From IMG/VR virus record IMGVR_UViG_3300020578_000008, positions 62,001 through 126,000 of that record: DNA of 64,000 bases. One strand, written 5' to 3'. The notes beneath the pieces are model-generated. The model had not been told where the DNA came from. It was given only the letters and a program-made list of their open reading frames with translations, and did not search any database. The position numbers and the translations under genes are program-made. The first letter of the stretch is position 1. Each line of letters begins with the position of its first letter. This document shows, in pieces, positions 32,401-61,817 of the stretch. Origin of the DNA: a virus.

Positions 32401-35400
32401 CCATGAGAAATTGGCAAACAAAAATTAGTCTGAAGTTTAAAAAAGATAGTGATATTGTTGAAGTTGTTTCAGCAGCAGGAACAATTGGTCTTGTTCCCAA
32501 AATGAGATTATATTCTTATAATAATCTAGAACAACAAGTAGAAACAGATTACTTCATTAAAGAAGTTGTATCTCCAACTCAAATAAGAATCTGGAAATTT
32601 AATACAGGTCTTTCTGGAGCAGATCACACTTTTGCTGATGGTGAAATAACAGGCTTTAAAACAAGAAATATTAATTTAAAACTTAGTGAAGGTGAAACAT
32701 CATTTACACCAATTTGGACAGATGATTTAGTTCCAAGAACTACCAACTATCCAGAATTTCCAGAATGTACTAACGTTGCTGTTACATTAACAAACTTATT
32801 TACTTTAATTGATGATATTGTAGTAAACAATACGGATGATCGTTACTTTGACGCTACAAATCAGATAGAATTTAATAAAGATTTTATTGCTGAGGAAGTT
32901 AATGGTTGGTTAAAAGAGACATATGATGGATTTGCTTATCCATTACCAACTTTTACCAAAACAGTTATTGATACTTCAAACGCTGATGCTTATCCATCTT
33001 TTATTCAAATAACTAATACTGCAAAAGTAAAGGTAGGGCAATTAGTAACTAGCGGTGACGCTATTCAAGATAATACATACATTACTTCTATTGATGTAGA
33101 AAATAAAATTTTATATCTAAGTAAATCATTAGAAAGTGAGATGGATAGTGTTACTATTCATCCTGATGTATATCTTGATGAGTCGATGAGATATAAGGAC
33201 GCTTCTAACCTTATTCTCAAAAACAAAAACGAAATTACTGACAAAGCACTTGCTCAGATTGCTGTAGAATTTCCAGACTTCGTTTTCCCTGGAAATTCAG
33301 TTACTGACGAATTCAGTAGATTTGCTGATGGATACCGTTTAATTACTCAAAATATCAAAGAAATTGTTGATCGTTCTTCAGCAGAAGTTGCTGTACAACA
33401 TCCAGATTTTTATTTCCCTGCCGATGCTCAAACTACAAAGAGATCAAGATTTAAAGATGCTTATCGATTAATCCAATTAAACAAACAGGAAATTATTGAT
33501 ACTGCTTATGCTACTATGGAAGCAAATGGTCTTCCATCCCCAGCTCCAACTGATCTAGAATCTAAGTGTAAGCGTGACATTGGTTTGTTAGTTGATTACG
33601 TATCACTTGATGTATTTGTTGGTGGCAACACCTATGCCAGAAAGTTTGTTCTAACATATTTCAATGGCAACACATTTATTCCAGATGGTTTGGAAGGAGA
33701 AGTTCCTCAGTCAATAACAGCATTCAATGCTGCTAGAGATTTGATGAAGCAAGCTATTGCTAATCAATTAACAGTTAAAGATTTAACCATCACTCCTGGT
33801 GCTGCTACTTATGGTGGAGGTGGTGGAAACATTCCAAATGATAATGTTGGCGCTTGTGCTGATGTTCAATCTGCTATCACATCATTAGTTGCTGTTGTAA
33901 CTGACGTACTAACATCATTAAACATCAATAATCTAGTAAAAGAAAATGATGGCAACAATAACCGTTACGAAGATTCGGCGGATTTAATTTATAATAACAA
34001 GCAAGAAATTATTGATCGTGCTGCTGCTCAGATTGCTGTGGAGTATCCAGATTTCTATTATCCTGGCGATCCTCAAACTACATCTTCTTCAAGATTTAGA
34101 GATTCGTATCGTTTAATTCAGCAGAATAGGCAGCAAATTATTGACCGTGCTGCTGCTGAAATTGCTATACAATTCCCAGATTTCTATTATCCTGGAGATG
34201 CTCAAACAACTCCTACATCTAGATTTAAAGATGCTTATCGTTTAATTCAATTAAATCGAGATGAAATTATAGCAAATGCTTATGCTGCTATTTTAATATT
34301 CAATCCAGAATTTGTAAATCCAAATCCACAAAAATGCCAGAGAGATATTGGTATTTTCGTCGATGCTTTATCTTTGGATATTTCTAATGGTGGTGGTAAT
34401 ACATATACTCGTAAATTTGTACTACAATATTTTAATAATGGTATTCCTATTTCCAATGGTCTTCTAGGAGAAGAAGCGGAATCAAATGTTGCTTTTAATA
34501 AAGCAAGAGACGAGATGAATAGGGCTGTTGCTAACCAGTTAACAGTTAAAGATCTTACTATTACCGCAGATCCAACACCTGGATCTGGAACTGTATCGAA
34601 TACAAATCCCGACTCCTGTGCTAACGTTCAAGCAGCTATTACTAGCTTAGCACTTATTGTCACAGATAGAATTACTGCTGGTAATATAATTGGTTTACCA
34701 TCTGAAACAACAGGAACGATTCCTGCTGGGGAAGCAAAGTGTAAGAGAGATTTAGCATACTTTGTTGATTCTGTATCTCTAGATTTAACTTTAAAATCAA
34801 ACAAATATTCACGTAAATTTGTACTACAATATTTTAATAATGGTATTCCTATTTCCAATGGTCTTGTAGACGAAACAGCTCAATCTGTAGTTGCTTTTAA
34901 CATGGCTCGTGACATGATGAAGAATGCGATTACTAACCAGTTGTTCGCTAAAGATCTTACAATTACTCCAGACCCAGCACCTGGATCTGGAGCTGTATCA
35001 AATACAAATCCTAACTCCTGTACTAACGTAAGATCTACTATTGATACTTTATCTTCATTGATTACAGCAAGAATTACCGCAGGTAATTTAACTGGTCTTC
35101 CAGCAGAAGTAGAACCAGTTACACTCAAGGGAGAAACAAAGTGTAAGAGAGATATTGGGCAATTTGTTATTGCTATTGAAGCTGATTTACGTCAATTAAC
35201 CGATTTCAATACGAGAACATTCTTATCACGTTATTTCACTCCCGATGGTTCTTCTTGGATTAGTAATGGATTACAAAATGAGGAAGCACAATCTGTAGTT
35301 GCTTTTAACAAAGCAAGAGATGTAATTAATCAAGCGATCACCAATCAACTTTATTACAAAGACCTCACAATTACAGCAGATCCTGTAACAGGAAGCAATG

Positions 35401-38400
35401 CCAATCCTTCTTCGTGTGCTGATGTTCAAACAGCAATTACAACTCTAACGACACTTGTAACAACCAGAATTACTGCTGGAAACTTAGGAACAACCAAAAG
35501 TTCTTTCCTTGCTGCTGCTACTTACGATGTTTTAGTTGGAGAAATTAAGTGTAAGCGTGATGTTAAGAAGTTTGTAGAAGCAGTTTCTTTAGATGTATTT
35601 ACTAAAGGTAACAAATATTCAAGAGAATTTGTAAATCAATATTTCACAAATGTTTCAAGTCCTCTTTCAAATGGATTAGTAAACGAAGAAACTCAATCTA
35701 TCACAGCATTCAACATGGCTCGTGATATGATGAGGAAAGCAGTAACTAATCAATTAACAATTAAGGATTTAACTATTACTGCAGGACCAGCCCAATATAA
35801 CGGAAGTGGTGGCAATATCCCAAATCTGCCTTCAGGAACTGCTGCAGCATGTGTTGATGTTCAAGCAGGAATCGCATCGTTAAGTAAGATTATTACTGAT
35901 GTCATTACTGCTGGATCTTTAACTGGATTAGATGCTTTCCCAGAAACACAAGGAGTGTTTGGAATTGGTGAAACAAAATGTCGTAGAGACATTGGTATCA
36001 TTGTTGATGCTGTAGCAAAAGACGTTGCTGACGGTAGTAACTGGAGATCAGTAACTGCTGCTAGATCTTATTTCCAAGAAGGGCAACCAATTTCAAATGG
36101 TCTGGTTGATGAAGAAGCAGCATCTATTTTTGCTTTTAATAAAGCAAGAGATCTCATGATTCTTGCCATAAGAAACCAATTGAACTATCGTGATTTATCA
36201 ATTACTGCTGATCCAGAAAGATTAACAAACTTTGATAAATTTGTCTGCTCTGATGTTGCTTCAGGAATTACTACTTTAGTTTCTATTATTACTACAACTA
36301 TTAATGATGGTGATTTAGATTCTTTATCTGGAATAACTGTAAATAGAGGAACATATTCATTTAACGAAATTAAGTGTAAGAGAGATATTAAGCTTCTTAT
36401 TGATGCTGTCATTAATGATATAACTTTAAATGATAGCAACGCAAATAGTATTAACTATGCCAATTTATACAAGGAGCAAAACGGTAACATCAAATTAATC
36501 GATAATCAACTAATTCAATCTGTTGCCGCTTTCAGAAAAGCAAGAGATCTATGTATCCTTGCTATGAGAAATTGGATTGAATTCCCAGGAAAACAATATT
36601 ATCAGAAGGAGTATACAGATCTTGATTATGTAAGAGATGAGTTCTTAATTATTGATACTGAAACTCCTTATTGCCAGAATGTTGCCACTGCTATTACAAA
36701 TAGATTTGATTTAATCATTAATATTTTAACTGGTGATGCTGAAAATTCAAATCTAGATACAGCTAATCAAATTGCTATTAATGAAAACTTTATTATTAAC
36801 GAAGCATTAGCATCAGGAGAAGTTTCTTTCCCTGGTGTTTCAATTCCAAACATTACTAAATGTAAGAGAGATTTAAGAATTATCCTTCGCTCCGTACAAC
36901 GTGATATAATTCTTGGTGGTACTGTTGGTATTGTTCGTTCAGCAGATTCTTATTTAACTGGAGCAACTTTAGATGTAGGTTTTGTTGGCGATCAATTAGG
37001 TAAGACTTTACACATTTACGATTATGCCAAGCATATGGCAATTGCTGCCACAAGAAATTGGAATTTTGAAATTAGAGACTGTACGACAGTAAGCGGAAAT
37101 AATGTAGTAACAGTTCCTAACACAAATGGCGTTGTTCTTGGAATGAGAGTATCTGCTAATGAGTTTAGATACACTGATCTTACCCCAGATTCATATGCTT
37201 ATGTAATTGGAATTAATAGAGGAAGCAATACAATAACTTTAGGTAACTCTAAGTCATTGACAGCTGCTGCTTTCCCAGCAAATGCTTCAACAACAACAGC
37301 AAAACTATTCTTCTCATTTAGTGAAGTAGGTGCTCCATGGTTTGATGCTGCTAATAACATCACTGCTAATAAGACATTTATTAAGCAGGAAGCAGTTGGA
37401 TACATTGAAAATATCTATCCATATCTAACCACACTTAATCCTTCAACTTCATTAGCTAATCTTGTTTCTCAGTATGATAATGCTACATGCCAAAGAGATA
37501 TTGGTTATGTATTAGATGCTCTCATTTTTGATTTAAGATATGGCGGCAACTCAGAAACTATTAAAGCTGCCGAATTATATAGAAATGCTTCTGGTCACCT
37601 TGACTATATTGGTAATCAACTAGTTCAAAGTATAGAAACTTTTGAAAAGGTAAAAGATCTAGCAGTCCTTGCTATGAGAAATTGGAAGACTAGTGCTACT
37701 ACAACGTATACTAAACAATTTGCCACAGCAGATTATGTCGTAAACAATGATATATTACCAGATCCTGCTGGATATCCACAGTGTGCTTTCGTGGAAGCAT
37801 CAATAGAATCTTTATTCCAGCAGTTTGTTGACATCATCACAAATGATTCTGGAGGAACTAAAATTGATGCTGCTAGACTTATTGCTAGAAACTTTAAATA
37901 TATCGCTGAGGAAGCAGTAGGTGCTGCTAACGAGGAGTATCCTCTTGTAACAATTCCAAATGAAGCAAAATGTTTGAGAGACACTCAATTAATTATGACC
38001 GCTTGGATTAAAGATTTAATTACTGGAGGCAACTCTGCTACAATTCAAGCAACTCAATCTTATTTAACAAATACTGGCGCTGTTACTTTTATTCAGGATG
38101 AACTACAAAAGAGTAGATATGCTTATGAGTACGCTAAAAATCTAGTTAAATTAGCAGTTACAAATAATTTACCTGATCCAGGAGAATATACAGACGAAGA
38201 TCCATTTACTGATTTATCTATTCTCCCAGATCCTCTTACTAATGACAATACAGATCCAACGTCATGTGCTTCAGTACAAAGCACCATAGAAACTTTATGG
38301 AGTATTCTTGATAGTACTTTAGCTCAATCTGGAGCTCCATTACCAGCAGCTACTTATGGCACTCAATACAATCCTCGTAAATACTTCCCAGCAAACTTCC

Positions 38401-41400
38401 CTGGTATTTTTGCTGGTGATTATTTCCAAGGTTTACAAAGAGCGTCTACGGATGAATTCATTACAGAAGACACATCCTATCCAGAATGTGCCAATATTAT
38501 TACTACATTAATTAATCTATTTGCCATCTTAGATGCTGTGCTAAATGGTGGAGATTTACCAGAGGCTACTAATGATAACGTTGCTTTAGTTGTTAGAAAT
38601 CGAGGAACTCTTTACAACCCAACAATTGTACAAGGTTCTGGTACAATGATTGATGCTGGTAACAGACCAGTAATTCGTGGTAGAATGATTAATGCCAATG
38701 ACATTATTGAAACTTCTCCATATATTCAAAACTGTTCGATTATTTCATTCTTAGGTGGTGGTGGTTGTGAAGTTGATGGTTCTAAGATTAAACAAATTAA
38801 CGTTCCTCGTCCAGGTTTGAAAGAAGATGGATCATCAAAGCTTGCCCCACAAGGTAAATCGATGGTTGCTAACGCCTTCACTATTATTTCACAGGGAGGC
38901 ACTGGATACTTAGTTAAGAATGATGGTTACACTCAGTTGGTATCTGTATTCTGTATCTTCTGCCAAGATGGTATTCTTGCCGAATCTGGTGGATATGCTT
39001 CTGTTACCAACTCTGCTTCAAACTTTGGTACATATGCTCTACGTGCTACTGGATATAGAGAAGAACCATATGTATTTGATATTGCTACCATTAGCGAAAT
39101 TGGTGTTACGGGCGCTGGTAAAACAATATTCCGTGTAGATGGATTAGGAAGAAGACCACAAGAAAACTTTGTTGTTAAAATTGATGGATATGAAAATGTC
39201 GTATCAGACATTGAATTTTTTATAACTGTAGTATCTCAAACAACAGTTGGTGGAACTGGAGAAGTTAGTTCTAGAATTGAGTTAAATGATGCTCTTTTAA
39301 TAAAAAATAAAGAATCTGGTCAGATAGTCAATCTCAACACTTCAGAATTAATTAATAAAACAATTAGATTATTCAGACCATCTATCATTAACTCTTCTGG
39401 TCATTCGTTTGAATATATTGGTTCTGGTATTAATTACTATGCTCTACCAGAAAATGGTGGACAGAAGATTGAAGATAACGAGCAAGTATCACAAAGTTAC
39501 GGTAGAGTATATGCTTCTGGTACTGATGAGGCAGGTGACTTCAAGGTAGGTCGTACCGTGAAGATGGAAAACAGAACTGGTAACATTTACTTTACTGGTC
39601 AAGTATCTATCTCGGAAATTGAATTCTTACGTATTCGTGGTGGTGATCTTGTTGTTACTGGATTTGATGCTTCGCCAACATTAGGTGGTGCTGCTGCTAC
39701 AAACCAAAAACTACCAACACAGAAAGCTGTTAGAGACTTTGTAACTAATAACCTAGGTCCATATTTTGGTAAACCATATTCAACAAATCCAGTTCCAAAT
39801 GCTCTTGTAGAACTAGGAAATGATGGTAAGATTAATCTAGATCAAATTCCACCTATCAGACCATTTAAAGTTTATACAGTAGAAAACACTTCCCAAAGAC
39901 TTGCTTTAGAAGGATTAAATTCTGGTGATATTGCTGTACAAGTTACAAGATTGAATGATACTATCAGTGCTTCTGATGTTGATGTAGCAAATAATAAAAT
40001 CTTTACTCCTAAAACTGGATTCTCTAGCGGTCAAATTCTTTCAATTGTATCAAGTCCAGTTAACCCAATTCAAACAACTGATGGTCCTATAGTTGCTGGA
40101 GAGTCTTATTATCTTATTGTTCTTCCAAATAATTTTGTTCAGTTAGCAGCATCTCCAGAAAATGTTATTGACGAAATTCCTATAACAATTACTGACGCTG
40201 GATCTGGCAATACAGAAGTTCAAATCGCTACTGGTACAGTTTCATATATTTTAAATAATGATGTAGATACTCAATTTTTAGCTTATCCTCCAAATATATC
40301 CACAACATTTACAACTGGATCATTAGTTATTGGTTCGGCAACAGGTGCTATTGGTTCAGTAACTAGTACTTTATATGGTACTGTATTCTCAATTTCAGTT
40401 TCTGGCGGTGGTAATGTTTATTTAAATGAAACTCCATCTGTAGTTATCTCTGCTCCGAATCAAGGTGATGGTGTTCAAGCAACAGCAACTCCTGTTGTTG
40501 TTGGTAGTAGAATTTCGGCAGTTGAAATTACCAATAAAGGAAGTGGATATGATACCACACCAACTGTATCTATTTCTATAGGAGAAGTTGCTTGGTCAGC
40601 AAATCAAACATATCTTGTCGATGATTTAATTTTTGTTGGAACAAATCTTTATAAAGTAACAACAGAGGGAACTTCAGGAACATCTGCTTTCTCTGGTCAA
40701 TCTGGCATTCCTCAACCAGCAGATGGTGGTACATGTTTCTATGTTTACGTCGGGGAAAGAGCTCAATTAACATCTTTTGTTGAAAGTAGAGTTTCTATTA
40801 ATATTGAAAATTCTGTTAAATTTACTGATGTTGACAATATTAATAGTCATAATGCTACTCCTGTCACAGTAAACATATCTAGAGTTGTTAATACATCAGG
40901 ATCAAATGAATTTAACTGGGTTCCACTGACATCAGCTTCTATTGATGCTGCTTCTATTACTACTGGTACTATTTCTACTTCTAGATTAGCATTACCTAAT
41001 ACTGGTTCAGCAAACTCGTTTACATTCTTAAGGGGCGATCAATCATTTAAACCAGTTGTACAAGGTGTTAAATTACCAGAATCTAAATTCTTAGTAAAAA
41101 CTGTTCTATTCTCACCTGGAAGTGGTGATCCTTTAATCCCGCCAGTAAACTACATCACTATTCCATTAACGAGTTTAATACAAACTGGACAGAGAGTTAT
41201 TGGTAATGGTGTGTCAGCAGATACAATTGTTCTTGAAATATTAACTGTTGGTGGTAATACTAGAGTTGTATTAAGTTCTACGCTAATTAATGATGTCCCT
41301 GTTGGTACAGTATTTACCATTATAAGAACAGAAACTGCATTACAATTTGATTCTAACTTTACCAAAGGAGCATATGCTGCTGGCATCTTTATAGAAAGTC

Positions 41401-44400
41401 CAGGTAACTATTACACTTCAACTATTACCAATGGTAATATAGGAGAAAATACAATTAGCGTAGTTGACGTTACCAAAGCTGTTATTGGGCAAAAGGTAAC
41501 TGCTGAGGGAGTTGCTACCAATGCTATTATCACCAGCATTCAGCTTGATAGTGGAACTTCGGGAACAATTACTTTATCAGCAAATAATACTGCTAATATA
41601 GTAAACAAAGAAGTTCAGTTTGGAGTTCCATTCTCAACTGGTACGTTCAATAACGTAGAACTATTCGGTTCAAATACAGGTTCTGGTGCTAAAGCAACAT
41701 TTACTGTTCAAAATGGTTTAATTACTAATGCCCTTATAACTGATGGTGGTAATGGATATACAGAAGATTTTGATATCGATCCCATTCCAGGTGCTTTAGG
41801 ATTAGGAACTGGCGCTAAACTTACTGTTCTTGCTTCAACTCAGCAAACATACTTCTCTAGCATCGAAATGGATGTCAAGAGAGTTACAAATCAAACAACA
41901 TCATTAGATCCTTTTGGTACAGTTGGTGTTGCTAGATTCCAGAAATCACAATATACATATGGTCCTGATGGAGCAGTTACTTTAAAAACTGGTCCAGAAT
42001 CAGGATTAGATTCTGACTTACTTGATGGTAAGCAAGGTGTATTCTATCTTGATGCTTCAAACTTAGAATCTGGCACTCTAAGACCAGATAGATTATCTGG
42101 TACATATTCAATTGATATTACTGGCAAATCTGGTACTACAACTAGAGTAGAAACTATAACAGATTCCATCAACGCTGTACCAGCTCCTTCTGCTTACGGA
42201 TCAGGTTTAAGTTTGGCAGCAAGAATATCTTCTAATTTTAGATCTTCTCTAGTTGATAGAACCTTAGAAGATGAAGGAGAGCGTGTAACATTACTGACTA
42301 TTAGACCATCTGGTATTGGTACAGATGCTAGTAATGGTGGTTTAAAACAGTTAGCATTTACTGATGGTACTCTTAACGTTGGTACAGGTGGTGGTGGTGC
42401 TAGTTCTTCTACAACTCTTGATGATGTTGTTCCAAATATGTACATTCGTGGTACAGGAAACATTATCCCAACTGATCCAACAAACGCTTTCTCACCTTGG
42501 TATAAGGTATGGACTTCTGGTAATGATGGATTTGGATCTGGATTAGATGCTGATAAACTACAAGCAAAAGATGCCAAGTTCTATACAAATGCTCTAAACC
42601 TTGATGGTGGCAGCATCAATGATTCCAGATTACAACCAATAATGTCTTCTAAGAAATTCTTAGAATCATTAACTACTGTTAGATATATTGACAAAGCACA
42701 CTATGAAATTTATTTCTCTGGAAGATTAAATAACGGAGATCTTAACTTCGTAATTGGCACCACTTACTCATTATACAATGATATTCTCCAAGTAGTTGGT
42801 CAAGCAACATTAAAGCTGATAGAGCAAAAATTCCCTGTAGAAGAGGTTAAAACAGAACTTAATTACGTAATTCTTACAATTCAATTAGATAGTGGTTCTA
42901 TTGGTTCTGCTACAAAAATTGGATTTACTGGTTTTGAACAAACATGGAATTCACTAAGACTTTCGCCATTTGCCACCTATACTTCTTCTACATTACAAGA
43001 TGATGGTACTGGAGCTAGATTAATCTTAGGAAGAAATGATGGTAACAATGTTGCCAACAACACTCCTTCTAGTGGTGCTATCATTGATTTCCATTCAAGC
43101 GGAGCATTCAATGAATATGATGTAAGATTCCAAGTCACTGGGGGTACTACTAATAGTGGTAATGGTGCTTTAAATATTACTGGTAATGGATTTACTTATA
43201 ACAGCAATACTGTCTGGCACTCTGGAAATGACACTGATATTTCAGGTCTGAATGCCAACTTCTTACAAGGTATTACAAAATCTCAGGTAATGAGATCTGA
43301 TGAGAATACAGCAACGGCTGGATCATTAACCGTAACTGGAGTTACAACATTATCAAGTTTCGTAACTATTAATGACGCTGCTCAATTAGCAGATAACACA
43401 ATTATTGATCCTGATATTTATTCTAACAAAGTTATTGCTGGTAATTTAGCAGATGGTGGAGGATTCTCTGTTATTGGTATTGGCGGTAATGCTGGAGTAG
43501 GTAAATCTTGGGCAATAGGTCATAATGGAACTTCATTGTACTTTGGTATTGGCGATGGAAGTGCTGCTGATACATTAACAACATGGGCACAAGTAGATGC
43601 CGACAGAACAATTAGATTCTTTGCTAAAAATAATAGCTCAATATTCTTCAGTTCTGGTACTAATGATTATAGAATTTGGAATGAAAATAATGATGGTTCT
43701 GGTTCTGGTTTAGATGCCGATCTCTTAGATGATAGAGATTGGAACTCTAGAGATAAATCAATTCTCAGAACTTCTGGATCTCATATTGCTGGTGGTTTAT
43801 ACATTAATGATGGCACTAAATATCAAACTTCAAACTTTGGTTTCTTAATTAGGCATTCTGATGCCAATGGTGTAAGTGCTGGTGCTGGTGGTAGACTAGA
43901 TTTTGTATTTGGAGACGATGCTTCTAAAGCAGCAGATCAAACTGTATCAACTCTTCGTACATTCTCATTTGATAAATCTGGTCAATTAATTCTTCCAGCG
44001 CCTACAGGTACTTCTCCATTATCTGTAACTTCTACGACTAAAGTAACAAATTTAAATGTTGATTTACTAGATGATCAGGATGGTAGTTATTATACAAACG
44101 TCAACAATGCTAATGCTGGTACTTTAGCTGCTGTTAGAGGTGGTACAGGAATCAATGCTTATGCTATTGGTGATATGTTGTATGCTTCAGCAACAACCCC
44201 AACACTAGCAAAATTAAATATTGGTACTACCAACCAAATTCTTACAGTAAATTCTGACGCCACTGCTCCTAAATGGACCTCACCATCAGCGATTAATATT
44301 GGATCAGCAACTAAAATTGCTGTTACATCAGATGCTGCTACATCAACTAATTTGGTGGTTGGATTCTTCTCATCTACAGAAACCCCAGCAGATATTAAAT

Positions 44401-46586
44401 ATAGCTCAGACTCTTCACTTGGATTATTCTTTAATCCATCTGTAGGAAGATTAACAGCTAAAACATTCAATGGAGCTTTAAGTGGAAATGCTACAAGTGC
44501 TACTAACGTTTCTGCTGGTGGTGCTGCTGGATCTCTACTTTATCAATCAGGAACAAATACAACAACAGTTTTAGGAATTGGTACTTCTGGTCAGGTATTG
44601 GTAGTAGGTGGGTCTTCGGCTCCTATTTGGACAGCACAAATTAACATTACTGCTGGTAATATTAATGGTGGAGTTCGAGGGCAAGTATTATATCAATCTG
44701 GCGTTGGAGCAACAGCAAAATTACCTGTAGGTGCTGCTGGATCTTTACTCCAGACTAATGGAACTAATCAAAATCCTTCATGGGTGGCACAAAATACAAT
44801 CACTGCTGGCAACATACATGCTGGTGTTGCTGGCGATCTCTTATATCAATCTGCTGCCTCAACAACTTCTAAGTTAACCATTGGATCTGCTGGTCAGGTA
44901 TTGGTAGTAAATACCAATGCTACGGCTCCTTCTTGGACAGCACAAAGCAATATTACTGCTGGTAATATTGCTAGCGTTGATGGTGATACTGGATCTTTAC
45001 TATATCAATCTGCCGTAAATGTTACGTCCAAGTTCTCACAAGGAACAGCTGGTCAAGTATTAAGTTCACAAGGAACTGGAGCAGCTCCTCTTTGGATCAA
45101 CCAATCTTCTATTACTGCTGGTAACATACATGCTGGTGTACGTGGCGATCTCTTATATCAATCTAACGTTGGAACAACTGTTAAATTAAATATTGGATCT
45201 GCTGGTCAGGTATTGGTAGTAAATGCTGGTGCTACGGCTCCTTCTTGGGTAGCACAAAATACAATCACTGCTGGTAATGTGGATGGTGGAGCTATTGGTG
45301 AAGTTCTATATCAATCTGCTGCTGGAGCAACAGCTAAATTGCCAGTATCAAATTCTGGATTTATTTTATCAACTCAAGGAGCAAATAACCCACCTGCTTG
45401 GATTAATCCAAATACAATTACTGCTGGTAATATTAGTGGTGGTGCTGCTGGAGAAATTCTATATCAATCTGGTACTGGAGCAACAGCAAAACTTCCTGTG
45501 GCAGCAGCATCTGCTGGACAAGTTCTTGCTCTAAGTTCCTCCAAATTACCAGTTTATATTAATCAATCTTCAATTGTTGCTGGCAACATTACCAGCATCG
45601 CCGCCGATACCAATAAAATTTTGTATCAGTCTGCCGTTAATACTACATCTAAATTACCAACAGGCGAGGCTGGTCAAATATTAAGGTCTGGTGGAAGCCT
45701 TGCTGTTCCTGGTTGGGTTGCCCAATCAACTCTTACTGTTGGAGCTGCTGCTAACGTATCAGGTGGTGGTGCTGGACAAATACATTACCAAAGCGGTCCT
45801 GGAGCAACGGCATTCTTAGCGGCAGGACAGAATACACAGGTTCTGATTGGTGGAGCAGCGGCGCCTGCTTGGTCTAATATTTCTGGTCTTTCTGTTGCCT
45901 CTGCTGCAAATATTACTGCTGGTGTTGCTGGCGATCTCTTATATCAATCTGCTGCCTCAACAACTGTTAAATTAAACATTGGATCTGCTGGTCAGGTATT
46001 AGTTGTTAACACTGGCGCTAGTGCCCCAACGTGGGTTAACCCATCAACATTAACCGTAGGTAATGCTACCACAGCAGTCAATACCACTGCTGGTATGCCT
46101 AATAATACTGACACTGTTTTAAATGCTCGTATTATTAGAAACAACAATAGCACCAGCGCCAATGACGGTATGTATATTGGTTATGGTAATACTAATAGTG
46201 GTCTTACTAGATTGTATGGCGGTGGTTCTACTTCAAATAGGTTAGAAATCAATTCCGCAGGTAATGTTACTGTAACTGGTACAGTAACAGCAAGTTCTGA
46301 TATCAGACTTAAGAAAAATATCAAAACAATTGAAAATGCTTTAGATAAAGTTCTAAATCTTAGAGGTGTAGAATTTGATCGAATTGATATTGATACTCAC
46401 CAGATTGGTTTAATTGCTCAAGAGGTTGAGGAAGTTATTCCAGAAGTTATATTTGAAAATGAAGATGGCATGAAGACTGTTGCTTATGCTAATATGGTAT
46501 CAGTCCTCATTGAGGCAATCAAAGAACAACAAATTCAAATAAATATGCTACAAGAGGAAATTAAATCTCTCAAAGACAAACCATAA
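29472..46586 (+). CDS. 5704-residue giant tail fibre with C-terminal S74 intramolecular chaperone
   Basis: Domain order: residues ~60-150 hold two GxGY units ('ITNPGVGYLITPTITV'). Residues ~237-360 begin a DUF1565-like beta-helix ('GSDTNNGRSPAKPVRTIKKA'). Residues ~770-3017 are twelve Cys-containing repeats, apparently helical. Residues ~3063-3213 look like the continuation of the beta-helix ('SPYIQNCSIISFLGGGGCEV'). Residues ~3310-3380 are a linker shared with the 3756-residue fibre. Then come GxGY units, 'SGNDGFGSGLDADKL'-type fibre modules near 42000-43740, and an 11-copy array at ~4886-5531. The last ~100 residues are a Peptidase_S74 domain ('SSDIRLKKNIKTIENALDKV', 'IGLIAQEVEEVIPEV'). Such domains trimerise fibres and then cut themselves off, here expected at Ser5609. 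A host-recognition fibre is the likely role. The length is exceptional. Confidence 0.85.
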   Translation: MSLKFNPNKQIIESTELNINGKSFVTISSGEGLESKEIIRVVRKNGASRVGLNRTGERIAKVNITNPGVGYLITPTITVSQPDIISRNSKVAVLSAVRDPDTGSIISVIITDPGRGYSQPPTIVFAEAPLGGVTAQGTCELDTIDFELDVLGAIRTSASIVSDSATVTNLNVQNFVTPGILLRAPRLGSYTNLTNANLPFYGQTVYPELTATPPLQDQSRRIATTEFVYNVATNDVGGRIYVSSEIGSDTNNGRSPAKPVRTIKKAAQLAAATPSRETLIVAGGEYYEDNPISIPPLCSVIGDNLRLVIVRPVNPGRHMFKASNQNYMNGLTFRDALDSEGNPVYTHNFAFVFDDKQRFYFDDEIGGNDTRIDGTESFRRRFPIGHKMFGQKSAILNIKEHTGDVAKLNALITAGTNIVGQQTSCSATLTSIISATPAPDYVWEAEQEYLVGDIVRVSNSIYKVTTSGSSGTIAYSGVLATPKNAVNGSSAYIYLGDRREASLNITVNDNSPSQSFADDEVISYVINSVTYLANVALFKSTRAEGEVVKYGETELREYIVEEIDASKWSTHPTPGDNGQLTPGSGGIIFKFAGLHEFKEFDIVFISKPNNAPVALNSFFGFQRVDQVLYDADGFSRRIVVKKQIQPSYTSVYLPPIGQCKAKAKTKYVEISLLNSPYGFTDSTFTSYRFIDAVTFIRNNRDFIAEEITGAISSRYPDFVYPGTNASRLRFKDARNLIYKNLDFIADEAIGWLWNESNFATWGAANLALKSKCRRDVKIFLRGLANDLYDGSNKSTIVVTRSYFNAITGVPIPNGLVGVEPQSIAVFTKAAEYAKLAVNNSLPITPTYSPLKAYRDLSITHDPTTYLTVGENNCANVKTAITTLTTILTSAISAGNLTGLPPVSSDDGASDGENLCKRDLKHILNAVIADLPYGGNATSIEAAKSYRNNSTQSVEYIDNQHRQSRFAFQLARDYAILAMRNWQTKISLKFKKDSDIVEVVSAAGTIGLVPKMRLYSYNNLEQQVETDYFIKEVVSPTQIRIWKFNTGLSGADHTFADGEITGFKTRNINLKLSEGETSFTPIWTDDLVPRTTNYPEFPECTNVAVTLTNLFTLIDDIVVNNTDDRYFDATNQIEFNKDFIAEEVNGWLKETYDGFAYPLPTFTKTVIDTSNADAYPSFIQITNTAKVKVGQLVTSGDAIQDNTYITSIDVENKILYLSKSLESEMDSVTIHPDVYLDESMRYKDASNLILKNKNEITDKALAQIAVEFPDFVFPGNSVTDEFSRFADGYRLITQNIKEIVDRSSAEVAVQHPDFYFPADAQTTKRSRFKDAYRLIQLNKQEIIDTAYATMEANGLPSPAPTDLESKCKRDIGLLVDYVSLDVFVGGNTYARKFVLTYFNGNTFIPDGLEGEVPQSITAFNAARDLMKQAIANQLTVKDLTITPGAATYGGGGGNIPNDNVGACADVQSAITSLVAVVTDVLTSLNINNLVKENDGNNNRYEDSADLIYNNKQEIIDRAAAQIAVEYPDFYYPGDPQTTSSSRFRDSYRLIQQNRQQIIDRAAAEIAIQFPDFYYPGDAQTTPTSRFKDAYRLIQLNRDEIIANAYAAILIFNPEFVNPNPQKCQRDIGIFVDALSLDISNGGGNTYTRKFVLQYFNNGIPISNGLLGEEAESNVAFNKARDEMNRAVANQLTVKDLTITADPTPGSGTVSNTNPDSCANVQAAITSLALIVTDRITAGNIIGLPSETTGTIPAGEAKCKRDLAYFVDSVSLDLTLKSNKYSRKFVLQYFNNGIPISNGLVDETAQSVVAFNMARDMMKNAITNQLFAKDLTITPDPAPGSGAVSNTNPNSCTNVRSTIDTLSSLITARITAGNLTGLPAEVEPVTLKGETKCKRDIGQFVIAIEADLRQLTDFNTRTFLSRYFTPDGSSWISNGLQNEEAQSVVAFNKARDVINQAITNQLYYKDLTITADPVTGSNANPSSCADVQTAITTLTTLVTTRITAGNLGTTKSSFLAAATYDVLVGEIKCKRDVKKFVEAVSLDVFTKGNKYSREFVNQYFTNVSSPLSNGLVNEETQSITAFNMARDMMRKAVTNQLTIKDLTITAGPAQYNGSGGNIPNLPSGTAAACVDVQAGIASLSKIITDVITAGSLTGLDAFPETQGVFGIGETKCRRDIGIIVDAVAKDVADGSNWRSVTAARSYFQEGQPISNGLVDEEAASIFAFNKARDLMILAIRNQLNYRDLSITADPERLTNFDKFVCSDVASGITTLVSIITTTINDGDLDSLSGITVNRGTYSFNEIKCKRDIKLLIDAVINDITLNDSNANSINYANLYKEQNGNIKLIDNQLIQSVAAFRKARDLCILAMRNWIEFPGKQYYQKEYTDLDYVRDEFLIIDTETPYCQNVATAITNRFDLIINILTGDAENSNLDTANQIAINENFIINEALASGEVSFPGVSIPNITKCKRDLRIILRSVQRDIILGGTVGIVRSADSYLTGATLDVGFVGDQLGKTLHIYDYAKHMAIAATRNWNFEIRDCTTVSGNNVVTVPNTNGVVLGMRVSANEFRYTDLTPDSYAYVIGINRGSNTITLGNSKSLTAAAFPANASTTTAKLFFSFSEVGAPWFDAANNITANKTFIKQEAVGYIENIYPYLTTLNPSTSLANLVSQYDNATCQRDIGYVLDALIFDLRYGGNSETIKAAELYRNASGHLDYIGNQLVQSIETFEKVKDLAVLAMRNWKTSATTTYTKQFATADYVVNNDILPDPAGYPQCAFVEASIESLFQQFVDIITNDSGGTKIDAARLIARNFKYIAEEAVGAANEEYPLVTIPNEAKCLRDTQLIMTAWIKDLITGGNSATIQATQSYLTNTGAVTFIQDELQKSRYAYEYAKNLVKLAVTNNLPDPGEYTDEDPFTDLSILPDPLTNDNTDPTSCASVQSTIETLWSILDSTLAQSGAPLPAATYGTQYNPRKYFPANFPGIFAGDYFQGLQRASTDEFITEDTSYPECANIITTLINLFAILDAVLNGGDLPEATNDNVALVVRNRGTLYNPTIVQGSGTMIDAGNRPVIRGRMINANDIIETSPYIQNCSIISFLGGGGCEVDGSKIKQINVPRPGLKEDGSSKLAPQGKSMVANAFTIISQGGTGYLVKNDGYTQLVSVFCIFCQDGILAESGGYASVTNSASNFGTYALRATGYREEPYVFDIATISEIGVTGAGKTIFRVDGLGRRPQENFVVKIDGYENVVSDIEFFITVVSQTTVGGTGEVSSRIELNDALLIKNKESGQIVNLNTSELINKTIRLFRPSIINSSGHSFEYIGSGINYYALPENGGQKIEDNEQVSQSYGRVYASGTDEAGDFKVGRTVKMENRTGNIYFTGQVSISEIEFLRIRGGDLVVTGFDASPTLGGAAATNQKLPTQKAVRDFVTNNLGPYFGKPYSTNPVPNALVELGNDGKINLDQIPPIRPFKVYTVENTSQRLALEGLNSGDIAVQVTRLNDTISASDVDVANNKIFTPKTGFSSGQILSIVSSPVNPIQTTDGPIVAGESYYLIVLPNNFVQLAASPENVIDEIPITITDAGSGNTEVQIATGTVSYILNNDVDTQFLAYPPNISTTFTTGSLVIGSATGAIGSVTSTLYGTVFSISVSGGGNVYLNETPSVVISAPNQGDGVQATATPVVVGSRISAVEITNKGSGYDTTPTVSISIGEVAWSANQTYLVDDLIFVGTNLYKVTTEGTSGTSAFSGQSGIPQPADGGTCFYVYVGERAQLTSFVESRVSINIENSVKFTDVDNINSHNATPVTVNISRVVNTSGSNEFNWVPLTSASIDAASITTGTISTSRLALPNTGSANSFTFLRGDQSFKPVVQGVKLPESKFLVKTVLFSPGSGDPLIPPVNYITIPLTSLIQTGQRVIGNGVSADTIVLEILTVGGNTRVVLSSTLINDVPVGTVFTIIRTETALQFDSNFTKGAYAAGIFIESPGNYYTSTITNGNIGENTISVVDVTKAVIGQKVTAEGVATNAIITSIQLDSGTSGTITLSANNTANIVNKEVQFGVPFSTGTFNNVELFGSNTGSGAKATFTVQNGLITNALITDGGNGYTEDFDIDPIPGALGLGTGAKLTVLASTQQTYFSSIEMDVKRVTNQTTSLDPFGTVGVARFQKSQYTYGPDGAVTLKTGPESGLDSDLLDGKQGVFYLDASNLESGTLRPDRLSGTYSIDITGKSGTTTRVETITDSINAVPAPSAYGSGLSLAARISSNFRSSLVDRTLEDEGERVTLLTIRPSGIGTDASNGGLKQLAFTDGTLNVGTGGGGASSSTTLDDVVPNMYIRGTGNIIPTDPTNAFSPWYKVWTSGNDGFGSGLDADKLQAKDAKFYTNALNLDGGSINDSRLQPIMSSKKFLESLTTVRYIDKAHYEIYFSGRLNNGDLNFVIGTTYSLYNDILQVVGQATLKLIEQKFPVEEVKTELNYVILTIQLDSGSIGSATKIGFTGFEQTWNSLRLSPFATYTSSTLQDDGTGARLILGRNDGNNVANNTPSSGAIIDFHSSGAFNEYDVRFQVTGGTTNSGNGALNITGNGFTYNSNTVWHSGNDTDISGLNANFLQGITKSQVMRSDENTATAGSLTVTGVTTLSSFVTINDAAQLADNTIIDPDIYSNKVIAGNLADGGGFSVIGIGGNAGVGKSWAIGHNGTSLYFGIGDGSAADTLTTWAQVDADRTIRFFAKNNSSIFFSSGTNDYRIWNENNDGSGSGLDADLLDDRDWNSRDKSILRTSGSHIAGGLYINDGTKYQTSNFGFLIRHSDANGVSAGAGGRLDFVFGDDASKAADQTVSTLRTFSFDKSGQLILPAPTGTSPLSVTSTTKVTNLNVDLLDDQDGSYYTNVNNANAGTLAAVRGGTGINAYAIGDMLYASATTPTLAKLNIGTTNQILTVNSDATAPKWTSPSAINIGSATKIAVTSDAATSTNLVVGFFSSTETPADIKYSSDSSLGLFFNPSVGRLTAKTFNGALSGNATSATNVSAGGAAGSLLYQSGTNTTTVLGIGTSGQVLVVGGSSAPIWTAQINITAGNINGGVRGQVLYQSGVGATAKLPVGAAGSLLQTNGTNQNPSWVAQNTITAGNIHAGVAGDLLYQSAASTTSKLTIGSAGQVLVVNTNATAPSWTAQSNITAGNIASVDGDTGSLLYQSAVNVTSKFSQGTAGQVLSSQGTGAAPLWINQSSITAGNIHAGVRGDLLYQSNVGTTVKLNIGSAGQVLVVNAGATAPSWVAQNTITAGNVDGGAIGEVLYQSAAGATAKLPVSNSGFILSTQGANNPPAWINPNTITAGNISGGAAGEILYQSGTGATAKLPVAAASAGQVLALSSSKLPVYINQSSIVAGNITSIAADTNKILYQSAVNTTSKLPTGEAGQILRSGGSLAVPGWVAQSTLTVGAAANVSGGGAGQIHYQSGPGATAFLAAGQNTQVLIGGAAAPAWSNISGLSVASAANITAGVAGDLLYQSAASTTVKLNIGSAGQVLVVNTGASAPTWVNPSTLTVGNATTAVNTTAGMPNNTDTVLNARIIRNNNSTSANDGMYIGYGNTNSGLTRLYGGGSTSNRLEINSAGNVTVTGTVTASSDIRLKKNIKTIENALDKVLNLRGVEFDRIDIDTHQIGLIAQEVEEVIPEVIFENEDGMKTVAYANMVSVLIEAIKEQQIQINMLQEEIKSLKDKP
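31779..38520 (+). repeat. Twelve Cys-containing, apparently alpha-helical repeats in the giant fibre
   Basis: Twelve units start with a C-K/R-R-D motif, for example 'KCRRDVKIFL', 'KCKRDIGLLV', 'KCQRDIGIFV', 'KCKRDLAYFV', 'TCQRDIGYVL' and 'KCLRDTQLIM'. A second motif of the form C-x-N/D-V-x-x-x-I occurs twelve times ('SCANVQAAI', 'SCADVQTAI', 'ECTNVAVTL'). Between them lie amphipathic segments such as 'SVVAFNMARDMMKNAITNQL' and 'RKFVLQYFNNGIPISNGL'. Units are mostly 130-190 residues. A shorter ~35-residue unit with 'YPDFYYPGD' is interspersed near 31600, 33260-33420 and 34040-34200. The helical character is judged from residue pattern only. Confidence 0.85.
34410..34463 (+). repeat. 54-base exact direct repeat, copy A (copy B at 34812-34865)
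   Basis: 34410-34463 is identical to 34812-34865, offset 402 bases (134 codons). It encodes 'RKFVLQYFNNGIPISNGL' in two neighbouring Cys repeats. Identity at all synonymous positions, in contrast to the diverged flanks, suggests recent gene conversion or slippage between adjacent repeat units. Confidence 0.9.
44127..46065 (+). repeat. Eleven-copy ~50-residue repeat near the giant fibre C-terminus
   Basis: Units read roughly 'ITAGNIxGGxxGxxLYQSGxG', then 'ATAKLPVGxAGQVL' and 'APxWxAQ'. I count eleven between 44127 and 46065, immediately before the S74 chaperone region. The conserved 'LYQS' and 'P-x-W' positions and short strands suggest a trimeric beta shaft near the receptor-binding end. Several copies share long stretches of DNA identity, such as the one encoding 'GDLLYQSAAST'. 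Confidence 0.85.
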
Positions 46587-46589
46587 ATA
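46582..46589 (+). promoter_or_regulatory. Late promoter motif overlapping the giant fibre stop codon
   Basis: CATAAATA at 46582-46589 contains the TAA stop of the giant fibre gene (46584-46586). It is 48 bases before the ATG at 46638, a spacing that supports the downstream start rather than the upstream in-frame ATG at 46593. Confidence 0.6.
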
Positions 46590-46622
46590 ATTATGTTACA
46601 ATATCCTTCGTACAGTATTATT

Positions 46623-46637: not shown

Positions 46638-46850
46638 ATGTCTACTGACACTACCGCTCTTAGAGAAAATTTTGAGAATCAACTCAAAAATATTAATGAG
46701 CAAATTACCAAACTTGAAGAAGATCTATCAAAAGCAAGAGAGTATAGAACCAAACTACAAGGGGGTCTAGAAACTCTCCAAATTTTAGATCCTAAGGAAG
46801 AAGTTTCAGCAGAAGAAACTCCCGTTTCCGAAACTGAAGTTGTAGAATGA
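46638..46850 (+). CDS. Small coiled-coil protein of unknown function
   Basis: 70 residues starting 'MSTDTTALRENFENQL'. Residues 8-45 ('NINEQITKLEEDLSKAREY') have a strong heptad pattern and high charge, typical of a coiled coil. The C-terminus is acidic ('KEEVSAEETPVSETEVVE'). The start was chosen by its Shine-Dalgarno sequence and distance from the late promoter. The gene stands alone between the giant fibre gene and a strong terminator, so it is probably made at high level on a short late transcript. No family was recognised; a scaffold, fibre-assembly or anti-host role cannot be distinguished. Confidence 0.75.
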   Translation: MSTDTTALRENFENQLKNINEQITKLEEDLSKAREYRTKLQGGLETLQILDPKEEVSAEETPVSETEVVE

Positions 46851-46857
46851 TTAAACC

Positions 46858-46878
46858 ACCCCCTTCGGGGGGTTTTTT
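46858..46878 (+). terminator. Rho-independent terminator after the coiled-coil gene
   Basis: ACCCCC at 46858-46863 pairs with GGGGGT at 46868-46873 around a stable TTCG tetraloop, followed by a T run to 46878. It ends the tail-fibre transcription unit, before the CpeT-like gene. Confidence 0.9.
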
Positions 46879-46891
46879 ATTGTGAGGTGAT

Positions 46892-47335
46892 ATGAAATTT
46901 GAATCTATTATAGGGCAATATTTAAATAAAAAACAAGCGTTTTCTTATCCATCACAATTCGCAATGATCCGTATTGTGTATAAAGATTTGGGCGATAATA
47001 AATTGATGTCTCAAAATTGGTATGAGTATCAATATCCTAGGGGTAGACCTTATAGACAAGAGTATCATAAGTATGAATATATTACAGAAAAAGAAGTAAT
47101 ATTTCAATCATATAATATGGATTGGGAATTGAATTGTAATTATCAATTTAATTATGTGAACGGATTTTGGATTGCCATGCCTTGTGGGGAATGTATCGTA
47201 AAAGGAATTAGAATTAACAGTGAGGTTAAATTTAATGATTCTCAGTACATAGCAAAAGATACTGGTTATGATGCTGACGGTAGATTAGTTTTTGGCAAGT
47301 CTACTGGCGGACCCTTCATTTTTGATAGGGTATAA
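46892..47335 (+). CDS. cpeT: CpeT/CpcT-like phycobiliprotein lyase (auxiliary metabolic gene)
   Basis: 147 residues matching the CpeT/CpcT family from end to end, though divergent. CpeT/CpcT proteins are chromophore lyases that attach or help attach bilins to phycobiliproteins. Visible family features are an N-terminal 'GQYLNKKQAFSYPSQFAMI' region, 'WYEYQYPRGRPYRQE' (family YxEQxYxxxxxPYRQR), 'CGECIVKGIRINSEVKF' (family GxxCxVxRxGRxTYxxSE), 'DTGYDADGRLVFG' (family DRGxDxxxxxxWGS) and the end 'GGPFIFDRV'. It is shorter than host proteins (about 200 residues), as in other phage copies. GAGGTGA lies just upstream of the ATG. It follows a strong terminator by 13 bases and precedes gp13, whose late promoter overlaps its stop. 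A role in host light harvesting during infection is inferred. It could instead bind chromophore without lyase activity. Confidence 0.82.
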   Translation: MKFESIIGQYLNKKQAFSYPSQFAMIRIVYKDLGDNKLMSQNWYEYQYPRGRPYRQEYHKYEYITEKEVIFQSYNMDWELNCNYQFNYVNGFWIAMPCGECIVKGIRINSEVKFNDSQYIAKDTGYDADGRLVFGKSTGGPFIFDRV

Positions 47336-47338
47336 ATA
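47331..47338 (+). promoter_or_regulatory. Late promoter motif before gp13
   Basis: An exact TATAAATA at 47331-47338 overlaps the TAA stop of the CpeT-like gene (47333-47335). It is 21 bases before the gp13 ATG and probably starts the neck-terminase transcript. Confidence 0.7.
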
Positions 47339-47359: not shown

Positions 47360-48190
47360 ATGGCAAGACCATCTACTCGCCAGGGGTTAATTGATTACTG
47401 TAAACGTCAACTTGGTTATCCTGTGTTACAGATTAACATAGATAATGATCAAGTTGATGATATTATTGATACAGCTATTCAGTTTTATCAAGAGTGGCAC
47501 TATGATGGCGTGGAAACAATGTACTTAAAGCATGAAATTACCGAAGACGATTATAATAGATTTGACAGTTCAGACGAATCAGAAACTACCTTAGATCCTT
47601 ATTCTGCTACGTGGGAAAATAGAAATAATTTTATAGAAGTTCCAGATCATGTTATTGGTATCACCAAAGTATTTGGCGTTTCTTCTAATTGGGTTCGTAA
47701 TGATTTGTTTGGTTTAAGCAACCAGTATTTCTTGATGGATATTTTTTCATTCTCATCTGGGTTTGCTTTTGGTAATTTTGACATGCCAAATTATTATATG
47801 ATTCGTCAGTATTTTGAAACGCTTGACATGGTTGTTAATACTGGTGCTGTAGTACAATTTAGATTTAACAAACGTCAAGATCGTTTATATATTGATATTG
47901 ATAAATCAAGATTGATACCAGGCAATTATCTATTAATCGAATGCCATCGTGCTTTAGATCCAGAAAACTGGTCTCAAGTATATAACGATAGCTTCCTCAA
48001 AAGATATGCTACTGCTTTAATGAAGAAGCAATGGGGACAGAATTTAATTAAGTACAATAACATAACTCTTCCTGGTGGAGTAAATTTAAATGGAAGACAG
48101 TTGTATGAAGATGCTATTGCTGAGATACAACAATTAGAAGATGATATGCCTACTAAGTATACACTCCCACCAATCGATATGATCGGATAA
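47360..48190 (+). CDS. 13: Neck protein gp13
   Basis: 276 residues, homologous to T4 gp13 (309 residues), which with gp14 completes the head after packaging and forms the joining surface for the tail. The N-terminus 'STRQGLIDYCKRQLGYPVLQ' and 'IDTAIQFYQEWHYDGVETMY' are characteristic of the family. A Tyr-rich middle ('MPNYYMIRQYFETLD') and 'LIECHRALDPENWSQVYNDS' follow. It begins a tight run 13-14-15-16 in T4 order, with one base between its stop and the gp14 ATG. Confidence 0.93.
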   Translation: MARPSTRQGLIDYCKRQLGYPVLQINIDNDQVDDIIDTAIQFYQEWHYDGVETMYLKHEITEDDYNRFDSSDESETTLDPYSATWENRNNFIEVPDHVIGITKVFGVSSNWVRNDLFGLSNQYFLMDIFSFSSGFAFGNFDMPNYYMIRQYFETLDMVVNTGAVVQFRFNKRQDRLYIDIDKSRLIPGNYLLIECHRALDPENWSQVYNDSFLKRYATALMKKQWGQNLIKYNNITLPGGVNLNGRQLYEDAIAEIQQLEDDMPTKYTLPPIDMIG

Positions 48191-59824: not shown

Positions 59825-61231
59825 ATGTTTAACGCTAAACTTCTCCAGGAAAAGTGGGCACCTGTTCTAAATCACTCGGAAGCTCCCGCTATCCAAGATC
59901 GTTACAAGCAGGCTGTTACCGCTGTTCTCCTGGAAAATCAAGAAAGAGCCCTACGTGAAGAGCGTAACATCCTCAATGAGGTTGCTGTAAACTCACTAGG
60001 CGCTGGAACTATTGATCCAGCTGGTTCAGCTCTATCAACCGCCAACACTGGTGGACTTGCTGGTTTCGATCCAATTCTAATCAGCCTAGTTCGTCGTTCA
60101 ATGCCAAACCTCATGGCTTATGACGTTTGTGGTGTTCAACCAATGAGCGGTCCTAATGGACTTATCTTTGCCATGAGATCACGTTACGAGAATCAAGCTG
60201 GCGAAGAAGCTCTATTCAACGAACCAGATACTGGATTCACTGCTGGTTACGACGCAACTACTGGCGCTTACACCCCAAGAACTGGTGCTGGTGTTGGTGG
60301 AGATTCTGAAGGTAACAATCCTTCTCTACTTAACGACGCTACCCCTGGCACTTATGAAGTTGCTCGTGGTATGAGCCGTGAAGACCTAGAAAGAATGGGC
60401 GAGTCAGGTCGTCTATTCCGTGAGATGTCATTCAGCATCGAGAAGACTTCGGTTACCGCCAAGTCAAGAGCCCTCAAAGCTGAGTACACTCTAGAACTTG
60501 CTCAAGACCTTAAGGCTATTCATGGTCTTGATGCTGAGCAAGAACTTGCTAACATTCTTTCAAGTGAAGTTCTTGCCGAAATCAACCGTGAAGTTGTTCG
60601 TACCGTTTACCGTGTTGCCAAGAAAGGCGCTCAGAATAACGTTGCTACCGCTGGTGTATTTGACCTCGACGTTGATTCCAACGGTCGTTGGACGGTTGAA
60701 AAGTGGAAGGGTCTACTCTTCCAGATTGAAAGAGATTGTAACGCTATTGCCCAAGACACTCGTAGAGGCAAGGGTAACTTCCTCATCTGCTCAGCTGACG
60801 TTGCTTCAGCTCTAGCGATGGCTGGTACTCTCGATTATTCCTCAGGTCTCGGCGGCGCTGGTGGTCCTTCCCTCAGTGGTGTTGATGACACTGGCAACCT
60901 TGCTGTTGGTACAATCAATGGTAGAATCAAGGTCTTTGTTGATCCTTATGCTGCTAATGTTTCTGATAAGCATTACTACCTCGTAGGTTATAAGGGTTCT
61001 TCACCATATGACGCTGGATTCTTCTACTGCCCATATGTACCCCTCCAGATGCTCCGTTCGATTGATCCTAACACCTTCCAGCCTAAAATTGGCTTCAAGA
61101 CTCGTTACGGCATGGTATCGAACCCATTCGTCACCACCAACGGTGCTTACAACGGCACTCCAGATGGCGAGACTCTCACCCCTAATGCTAACATGTACTA
61201 CAGAAGAGTACAAGTTAAGAACCTCATGTGA
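59825..61231 (+). CDS. 23: Major capsid protein gp23
   Basis: 468 residues (T4 521), the hexameric head shell protein. Hallmarks are 'LVRRSMPNLMAYDVCGVQPM', 'GPNGLIFAMRSRYE', 'EMSFSIEKTSVTAKSRALKA', 'EYTLELAQDLKAIHGLDAEQ' and the C-terminal 'KTRYGMVSNPF'. A likely gp21 cleavage site is after Glu52 in 'RNILNEVAVNSLGAG', which fits L-x-E and corresponds to the T4 site after LTE. Codon choice differs from the fibre genes, with many C-ending codons (AAC, GAC, TAC) and higher GC, as expected for a very highly expressed gene. A strong terminator follows. No gp24 vertex paralogue is in the window. Confidence 0.97.
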   Translation: MFNAKLLQEKWAPVLNHSEAPAIQDRYKQAVTAVLLENQERALREERNILNEVAVNSLGAGTIDPAGSALSTANTGGLAGFDPILISLVRRSMPNLMAYDVCGVQPMSGPNGLIFAMRSRYENQAGEEALFNEPDTGFTAGYDATTGAYTPRTGAGVGGDSEGNNPSLLNDATPGTYEVARGMSREDLERMGESGRLFREMSFSIEKTSVTAKSRALKAEYTLELAQDLKAIHGLDAEQELANILSSEVLAEINREVVRTVYRVAKKGAQNNVATAGVFDLDVDSNGRWTVEKWKGLLFQIERDCNAIAQDTRRGKGNFLICSADVASALAMAGTLDYSSGLGGAGGPSLSGVDDTGNLAVGTINGRIKVFVDPYAANVSDKHYYLVGYKGSSPYDAGFFYCPYVPLQMLRSIDPNTFQPKIGFKTRYGMVSNPFVTTNGAYNGTPDGETLTPNANMYYRRVQVKNLM

Positions 61232-61249
61232 TTCATCACTGGTTCATCT

Positions 61250-61273
61250 AGACCCCTTCGGGGGTCTTTTTTT
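61250..61273 (+). terminator. Rho-independent terminator after gp23
   Basis: AGACCCC at 61250-61256 pairs with GGGGTCT at 61261-61267 around a TTCG tetraloop, followed by a T run to 61273. It lies 18 bases after the major capsid stop codon and would insulate the capsid transcript from the tail-completion and recombination genes. Confidence 0.92.
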
Positions 61274-61278
61274 ATGCA

Positions 61279-61286
61279 GATAAATA
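61279..61286 (+). promoter_or_regulatory. Late promoter motif before the gp3-like gene
   Basis: GATAAATA at 61279-61286 directly follows the gp23 terminator and is 21 bases before the next ATG. It differs from the T4 consensus at the first base only. Confidence 0.6.
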
Positions 61287-61307
61287 GTAGTAGCTTGGGA
61301 AGTTGAC

Positions 61308-61817
61308 ATGCCTGCCAAATGGTTTGATGAACAACCAAAAAATAGGAATTTCTTAACTCCTATTGGTTTTAAATTAAATTTAGAAATTTTTAATAGTGTA
61401 GATTTTTTCTGCCAATCAATAAATCTTCCTGATGTAAACATGCCGTTTACTGACGTACCAACAAGATTTAGATCGTTTCCAATTGTTCCTGGTGGTGGAA
61501 TGCAATTTGGTGATCTAAGAATTAGATTTATTATTGATGAAGATTTACACAATTATAACTCTATTCATTCGTGGATCAAAAAAAATTCTGGGGCTAACGA
61601 ACATCCAGATATGCCAGAGTATTCACATGGTCAATTGTTTATTCTGACATCTAATTTTAATACAAATAGAATTGTAGATTTTGAAAATTTATTTCCTATT
61701 AGTTTAACTGATATTACTTTTGATTCTACAGCAACCGATGTAGAATATTTTACTGCTGACATATCATTCAAATTTACTGACTACACTATTCGTGATAAAA
61801 ACTTTAAACCAATATGA
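61308..61817 (+). CDS. 3: Tail completion / sheath stabiliser gp3-like protein
   Basis: 169 residues, close in length to T4 gp3 (176), which caps the tail tube end. The pattern 'NRNFLTPIGFKLNLEIFN', 'FFCQSINLPDVNMPFTDVPT', 'FGDLRIRFIIDEDLHNYNSI' and a final 'ADISFKFTDYTIRD' is that of a tube-fold protein related to gp19, gp48 and gp54. Cyanophages commonly place gp3 between gp23 and uvsY, which decides for gp3. A gp54-like tube initiator remains possible from the fold alone. Its TGA overlaps the uvsY ATG (ATGA). Confidence 0.65.
   Translation: MPAKWFDEQPKNRNFLTPIGFKLNLEIFNSVDFFCQSINLPDVNMPFTDVPTRFRSFPIVPGGGMQFGDLRIRFIIDEDLHNYNSIHSWIKKNSGANEHPDMPEYSHGQLFILTSNFNTNRIVDFENLFPISLTDITFDSTATDVEYFTADISFKFTDYTIRDKNFKPI

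Follow-up and report, generated by a model that had tools for sequence, protein, structure and literature searches.

The window analysed here is a 64,000-nucleotide stretch of a virus that infects photosynthetic bacteria (positions 62,001 to 126,000 of IMG/VR record IMGVR_UViG_3300020578_000008). It harbors a CpeT-type gene placed between a gene for a small protein and a neck gene, with the following features:

46583..46589, plus strand: ATAAATA late-promoter motif ahead of the PHROG-580 gene (motif scan)
46594..46602, plus strand: extended -10-like element TGTTACAAT (consensus match only)
46638..46850, plus strand: PHROG-580 gene for a small coiled-coil-like protein, the upstream neighbour (PHROG)
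46858..46879, plus strand: intrinsic terminator after the PHROG-580 gene and before cpeT (hairpin and T-run)
46892..47335, plus strand: CpeT-type (PHROG 488) gene of 147 amino acids, the derived gp13-adjacent copy (translation, Pfam, PHROG, fold, tree)
47331..47338, plus strand: late-promoter motif TATAAATA that runs across the cpeT stop and serves gp13 (motif scan)
47360..48190, plus strand: gp13-type neck or head-tail adaptor gene (PHROG 211), the downstream neighbour (PHROG)

The gene at 46892-47335 is a genuine member of the CpeT/CpcT family, as the original prediction proposed. Its frame of 147 codons is free of stops on translation. The product matches the Pfam CpeT profile (PF06206) at E 7.6e-9 and 36.1 bits, against a curated cut-off of 21 bits, and PHROG 488, the 'CpeT-like antenna protein' family, at E 8.9e-32 over residues 4-146; both matches are far beyond chance. 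A PDB search with a profile of 34 relatives retrieved Nostoc CpcT (4O4O, 1.6e-22) and the phage protein PhiCpeT (5HI8, 1.3e-18). The AlphaFold2 model has a mean pLDDT of 93.6, and its top folds in Foldseek are 4O4S, 4O4O, and 5HI8 at query TM-scores of 0.74-0.77. The predicted fold is the beta-barrel of T-type lyases, matching CpcT and PhiCpeT rather than another fold, in agreement with the family assignment. Relatives are present in 327 phage records; the nearest isolates are cyanophages, at no more than 41% identity. A phage-type CpeT also lies on a contig labelled Nonlabens xiamenensis, of the Bacteroidota (L110:2986-3453), where cyanophage contamination is possible. A role of the window protein in defence was considered and rejected, there being no PADLOC match.

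Phage-type lineage and a second copy

The phylogeny consists of 135 rows: 51 phage-type CpeTs, 83 host proteins, and a host-like CpeT that another phage carries as its second copy. A single branch (support 100/100, length 1.32) places the 51 phage-type proteins on one side and the host proteins, together with the host-like copy, on the other. The window protein groups with the phage-type CpeTs, neither with a non-lyase family, the outcome named in the original prediction as contrary to it, nor among host CpcT or CpeT. Features of the protein itself also set it apart from host orthologs, as CpcT segment 92-114 and R141 are absent and W175 is replaced by F134. The full-length profile match and the position within the phage clade assign it to the phage T-type subfamily (PHROG 488). 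Because this clade stands apart from the hosts at 100/100, recent acquisition of the gene from a host is ruled out. Foreign composition was rejected as well, since the GC content (0.311) and GC3 (0.25) of cpeT resemble those of the neighbouring genes.

The gp13-adjacent copies form a clade of six (99/97) that is sister (100/98) to a clade containing the virus's own second copy and the copies of contigs L021 and L040 (99/95). Pairwise dN/dS (Nei-Gojobori) among the six genomes ranges from 0.025 to 0.136, the ratios being rough because some dS values exceed 2, near saturation. These values clearly point to purifying selection on the window gene.

The second CpeT gene is located at C1:2222-2674 of G000, the phage record of the same virus (156,598 bases, linear, and incomplete). 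Its product is 46% identical to the window copy and gives the same outcome in structure searches. Seven tRNA genes lie within ∼2 kb, and a 2OG-Fe(II) oxygenase gene is found just upstream. Separate contigs back each cpeT locus (L011/L012 and L017/L018); no other single contig spans both, and a mis-join in G000 is formally conceivable. Each of the five cultured phages checked has one CpeT, at a locus that also harbors CP12 or oxygenases and the gp5 hub gene, often together with tRNA genes. As this locus resembles the neighbourhood of the second copy, the second copy appears to occupy the more usual position and the window copy to have moved. Treating the oxygenases beside cpeT in S-SZBM1 and G000 as one gene is unsupported (17% identity, E 0.04).

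This tree would result from an old duplication, after which the L021 lineage lost its gp13-adjacent copy, or from a related phage having supplied the second copy. In the L021/L022 lineage, one CpeT is phage-type and another host-like; thus, possession of two T-type genes by a phage evolved on at least two occasions. Host-like CpeTs are also present in other large phage records (L195/L196 in G143/G144 and L288 in G157, at 133 and 108 bits), and one lineage among these pairs the host-like gene with a phage-type copy. A search of open-access papers returned no report of two CpeT copies in a cyanophage. Within the literature searched, neither the pair of paralogues nor the gp13 junction appears to have been described.

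Retained and altered residues

All motifs quoted in the original prediction are present: PYRQ at residues 53-56, CIV at 101-103, DTGYD at 123-127, FGK at 134-136, and GGPFIF at 139-144. In CpcT numbering, the positions invariant in the hosts (83/83 proteins) are N20, Q23, P28, Y65, C116, D163, G165, W175, and G176. The window protein retains N12, Q15, P20, Y54, C82, D123, G125, and G135, each 100% conserved in the 83 host proteins, and the sole host-invariant position to have changed is W175, now F134. Also retained are the equivalents of the pocket motif (Tyr65, Arg66, and Asp163 of CpcT; Y54, R55, and D123 here) and of the two cysteines (Cys116 and Cys137; C82 and C101). Phenylalanine at the W175 position is found in 6/6 gp13-adjacent copies and in 15% of other phage copies; the paralogue clade has tryptophan.

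The protein had been described as divergent, with F-G-K in place of W-G-S and several arginines changed. The tryptophan-to-phenylalanine change is a genuine departure, fixed in the gp13-adjacent clade, whereas the lysine is the commonest residue at its position in phage copies and most of the divergence is common to the whole phage clade. The arginine losses are not peculiar to this protein, as they are widespread among phage copies. Segment 92-114 of CpcT, within which R97 and R101 fall, is missing from each of the 51 phage-type copies, and R141 is lost in most of the clade. The window protein further differs from CpcT by R68 to glutamate (E57), R164 to threonine, and R166 to tyrosine. Arginines at the mouth of the CpcT pocket hold the bilin propionates.

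Between the gp13-adjacent and paralogue clades, 10 positions are fixed differently, the W175 position among them. Five residues, M25, R27, E45, C98, and I108, are common to these two clades as against other phages. Cys98 is an extra, lineage-specific cysteine in both paralogues.

The gp13 junction

In its small clade, the window-type cpeT always lies between the PHROG-580 gene and gp13, a synteny that is fixed in seven contigs. The longest ORF of the PHROG-580 gene begins at 46593, and homology starts near Met16. Among 80 gp13 relatives compared, cpeT precedes gp13 only where the gp13 proteins are at least 86% identical; in the remaining relatives with a readable upstream region, PHROG-580 or another ORF abuts gp13. 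The late structural location noted originally is correct in that cpeT adjoins the neck genes, but such a location is usual for phage cpeT. Further upstream, 29472-46586 is a single tail-fibre-like ORF of 5704 amino acids, beside ORFs of 3756, 2703, and 2289 amino acids, which are unusually large tail genes.

The terminator and the gp13 promoter motif named in the original prediction are both present. The terminator consists of ACCCCCTTCGGGGGGT and a T-run at 46858-46879 and folds at -13.7 kcal/mol (z -1.9); an equivalent hairpin and T-run precede cpeT in 5/5 relatives compared. The motif ATAAATA at 47332-47338 overlaps the TAA of cpeT. On the plus strand of the window, 12 of 20 ATAAATA or CTAAATA sites lie within 75 nt upstream of gene starts, a region that represents 3% of the window (p ∼6e-14).

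Relatives with PHROG-580 but an empty site (n=16) have a junction hairpin ∼35 nt before gp13, with ATAAATA or CTAAATA in its loop; four of these hairpins, when folded, gave z values of -3.8 to -6.2. In these relatives (L212-L265), the late motif sits exactly in the hairpin loop, forming a compact combined stop/start element. The window clade has a separate terminator right before cpeT and a late motif over the cpeT stop. Judged from these layouts, the inserted cpeT separates what relatives have as one terminator/late-promoter element. Elsewhere in the window, at 61220-61308, this pairing recurs with no inserted gene: a strong terminator is directly followed by the motif ATAAATA, and then by a gene.

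The arrangement leaves no obvious promoter of cpeT's own, as the gene is flanked by the terminator and the late motif. The gp13 promoter cannot drive cpeT because its motif lies downstream, over the stop. The nearest conserved late motif upstream is the ATAAATA at 46583-46589; this motif and TGTTACAAT, which is exact in 5/6 clade members, are ∼300 nt away with the terminator in between. The late expression originally proposed for cpeT is weakened, and the gene may be expressed early, late, or both. Transcription most likely starts in the promoter region before PHROG-580 and reaches cpeT through partial read-through of the terminator, with TGTTACAAT a possible sigma-70 start for a joint transcript. 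A ribosome-binding site before cpeT is conserved in most clade members. At L015:5968-6444, the cpeT frame may begin at the PHROG-580 stop (ATGA), with translation passing across the terminator hairpin, an arrangement consistent with co-transcription.

Function and comparison with known systems

We lean, with some reserve, towards a phage T-type protein that binds and holds bilins, a second and derived paralogue expressed by read-through. The compact lipocalin-like beta-barrel, of the PhiCpeT (PHROG 488) subfamily of CpeT/CpcT, would most likely bind an open-chain bilin (phycoerythrobilin or phycocyanobilin) through Tyr54/Arg55 and Asp123. During infection, the protein would hold this bilin for host enzymes that mature or turn over phycobiliproteins, presumably to the benefit of the phage, and alone it probably does not ligate the bilin. 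One paralogue lies in the tRNA/2OG-oxygenase neighbourhood, as in other cyanophages, and the other, between the PHROG-580 gene and gp13, is kept by purifying selection, perhaps with a shifted use. The changes W175 to F and R68 to E and the missing host segment 92-114 count against this reading, as does the strength of the terminator to be read through. Searches for psbA/psbD, bilin reductase, and NblA (PF00124, PF05996, PF04485) gave no match in the 156.6 kb of G000, an incomplete linear record in which such absences carry little information. A tentative extension is that the two diverged bilin-binding paralogues divide their roles, the gp13-adjacent form being specialised (W to F, Cys98) for another infection phase or another bilin or subunit.

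The term lyase in the original prediction sits poorly with a clade that lacks CpcT 92-114 and mostly lacks R141. As a true T-type lyase, the protein would attach bilin to a cysteine in the beta subunit of host phycobiliproteins, and its preference for bilin or subunit might differ from that of the paralogue. The CpcT fold, Tyr54/Arg55/Asp123, and Cys82/Cys101 are all retained, and the 10 fixed differences might allow each paralogue a substrate of its own. The features missing throughout the phage clade, and the W-to-F and R68-to-E changes of this copy, nevertheless make a lyase unlikely. For PhiCpeT of Prochlorococcus phage P-HM1 (5HI8), Gasper and colleagues reportedly observed in 2017 tight binding of PEB, no transfer of PEB by PhiCpeT on its own, and an ability to assist CpeS. 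Less likely still is a trap that diverts or stores bilins, for dismantling of the antenna or protection against free bilins, with no aid to antenna assembly. The barrel is compatible with tight bilin holding, a copy located with structural genes would be active at a stage when building the antenna is less important, and Cys98 is an extra cysteine in both paralogues; against this, the incomplete record G000 has no NblA match, and irreversible binding would have to be assumed.

Recruitment to a task unrelated to bilins, such as an accessory role in the neck or in assembly with expression alongside gp13, would suit the fixed synteny and the W-to-F change with its nine companion differences from the paralogue clade. 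It is improbable given that the pocket-motif residues are retained and most gp13 relatives do without cpeT. That the gene is a functionless, decaying leftover of duplication is scarcely credible: its lack of a separate promoter downstream of the terminator would suit this view, but the dN/dS values across six genomes contradict decay, and the 147-codon frame is intact with a ribosome-binding site that most members conserve.

The holding protein favoured here belongs to a known family and a known kind of auxiliary gene, and departs only modestly from a gene familiar in phages. The new elements are the second, 46% identical CpeT, the small gp13-adjacent clade, and the placement of cpeT with a terminator on one side and the late promoter of gp13 on the other. 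The role of phage CpeT during infection has been termed unresolved (PMC3037559). Two selected CpeT genes at different loci with few fixed differences provide a matched pair for the question of whether such proteins ligate, hold, or trap bilins, and the gp13 junction provides a clear before-and-after view of how an additional gene splits a terminator/late-promoter element.

Promoter/stem-loop cassettes (PeSLs) of T4-like phages (Arbiol 2010, Comeau 2014, as cited in PMC4503421) are, like the window junction, compact terminator-promoter elements where gene content differs between relatives. PeSLs carry early promoters, whereas the window-type element carries a late-type motif, which at empty sites is in the hairpin loop. 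Where a PeSL couples an early sigma-70 promoter to its stem-loop, the element here has ATAAATA/CTAAATA in or beside the hairpin.

The cpeT genes of cultured T4-like cyanophages (S-SZBM1, syn9, S-WAM1, S-H38, and S-B64) are of the same family, at no more than 41% identity, and lie among tail/baseplate genes; these phages have one CpeT per genome, at the CP12/gp5/tRNA locus, away from gp13. CpcT of Nostoc PCC 7120 (4O4O; 4O4S with PCB) has the same fold and equivalents of the pocket and cysteines. The window protein is ∼50 residues shorter, lacks segment 92-114 and R141, and differs by R68 to E, W175 to F, R164 to T, and R166 to Y. PhiCpeT of P-HM1 (5HI8) belongs to the same subfamily (PHROG 488) and is likewise a compact single-domain barrel without the host segment 92-114, at 22% identity in the fold alignment. 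Unlike PhiCpeT, the window copy is a second paralogue that adjoins gp13 and carries F134 and Cys98.
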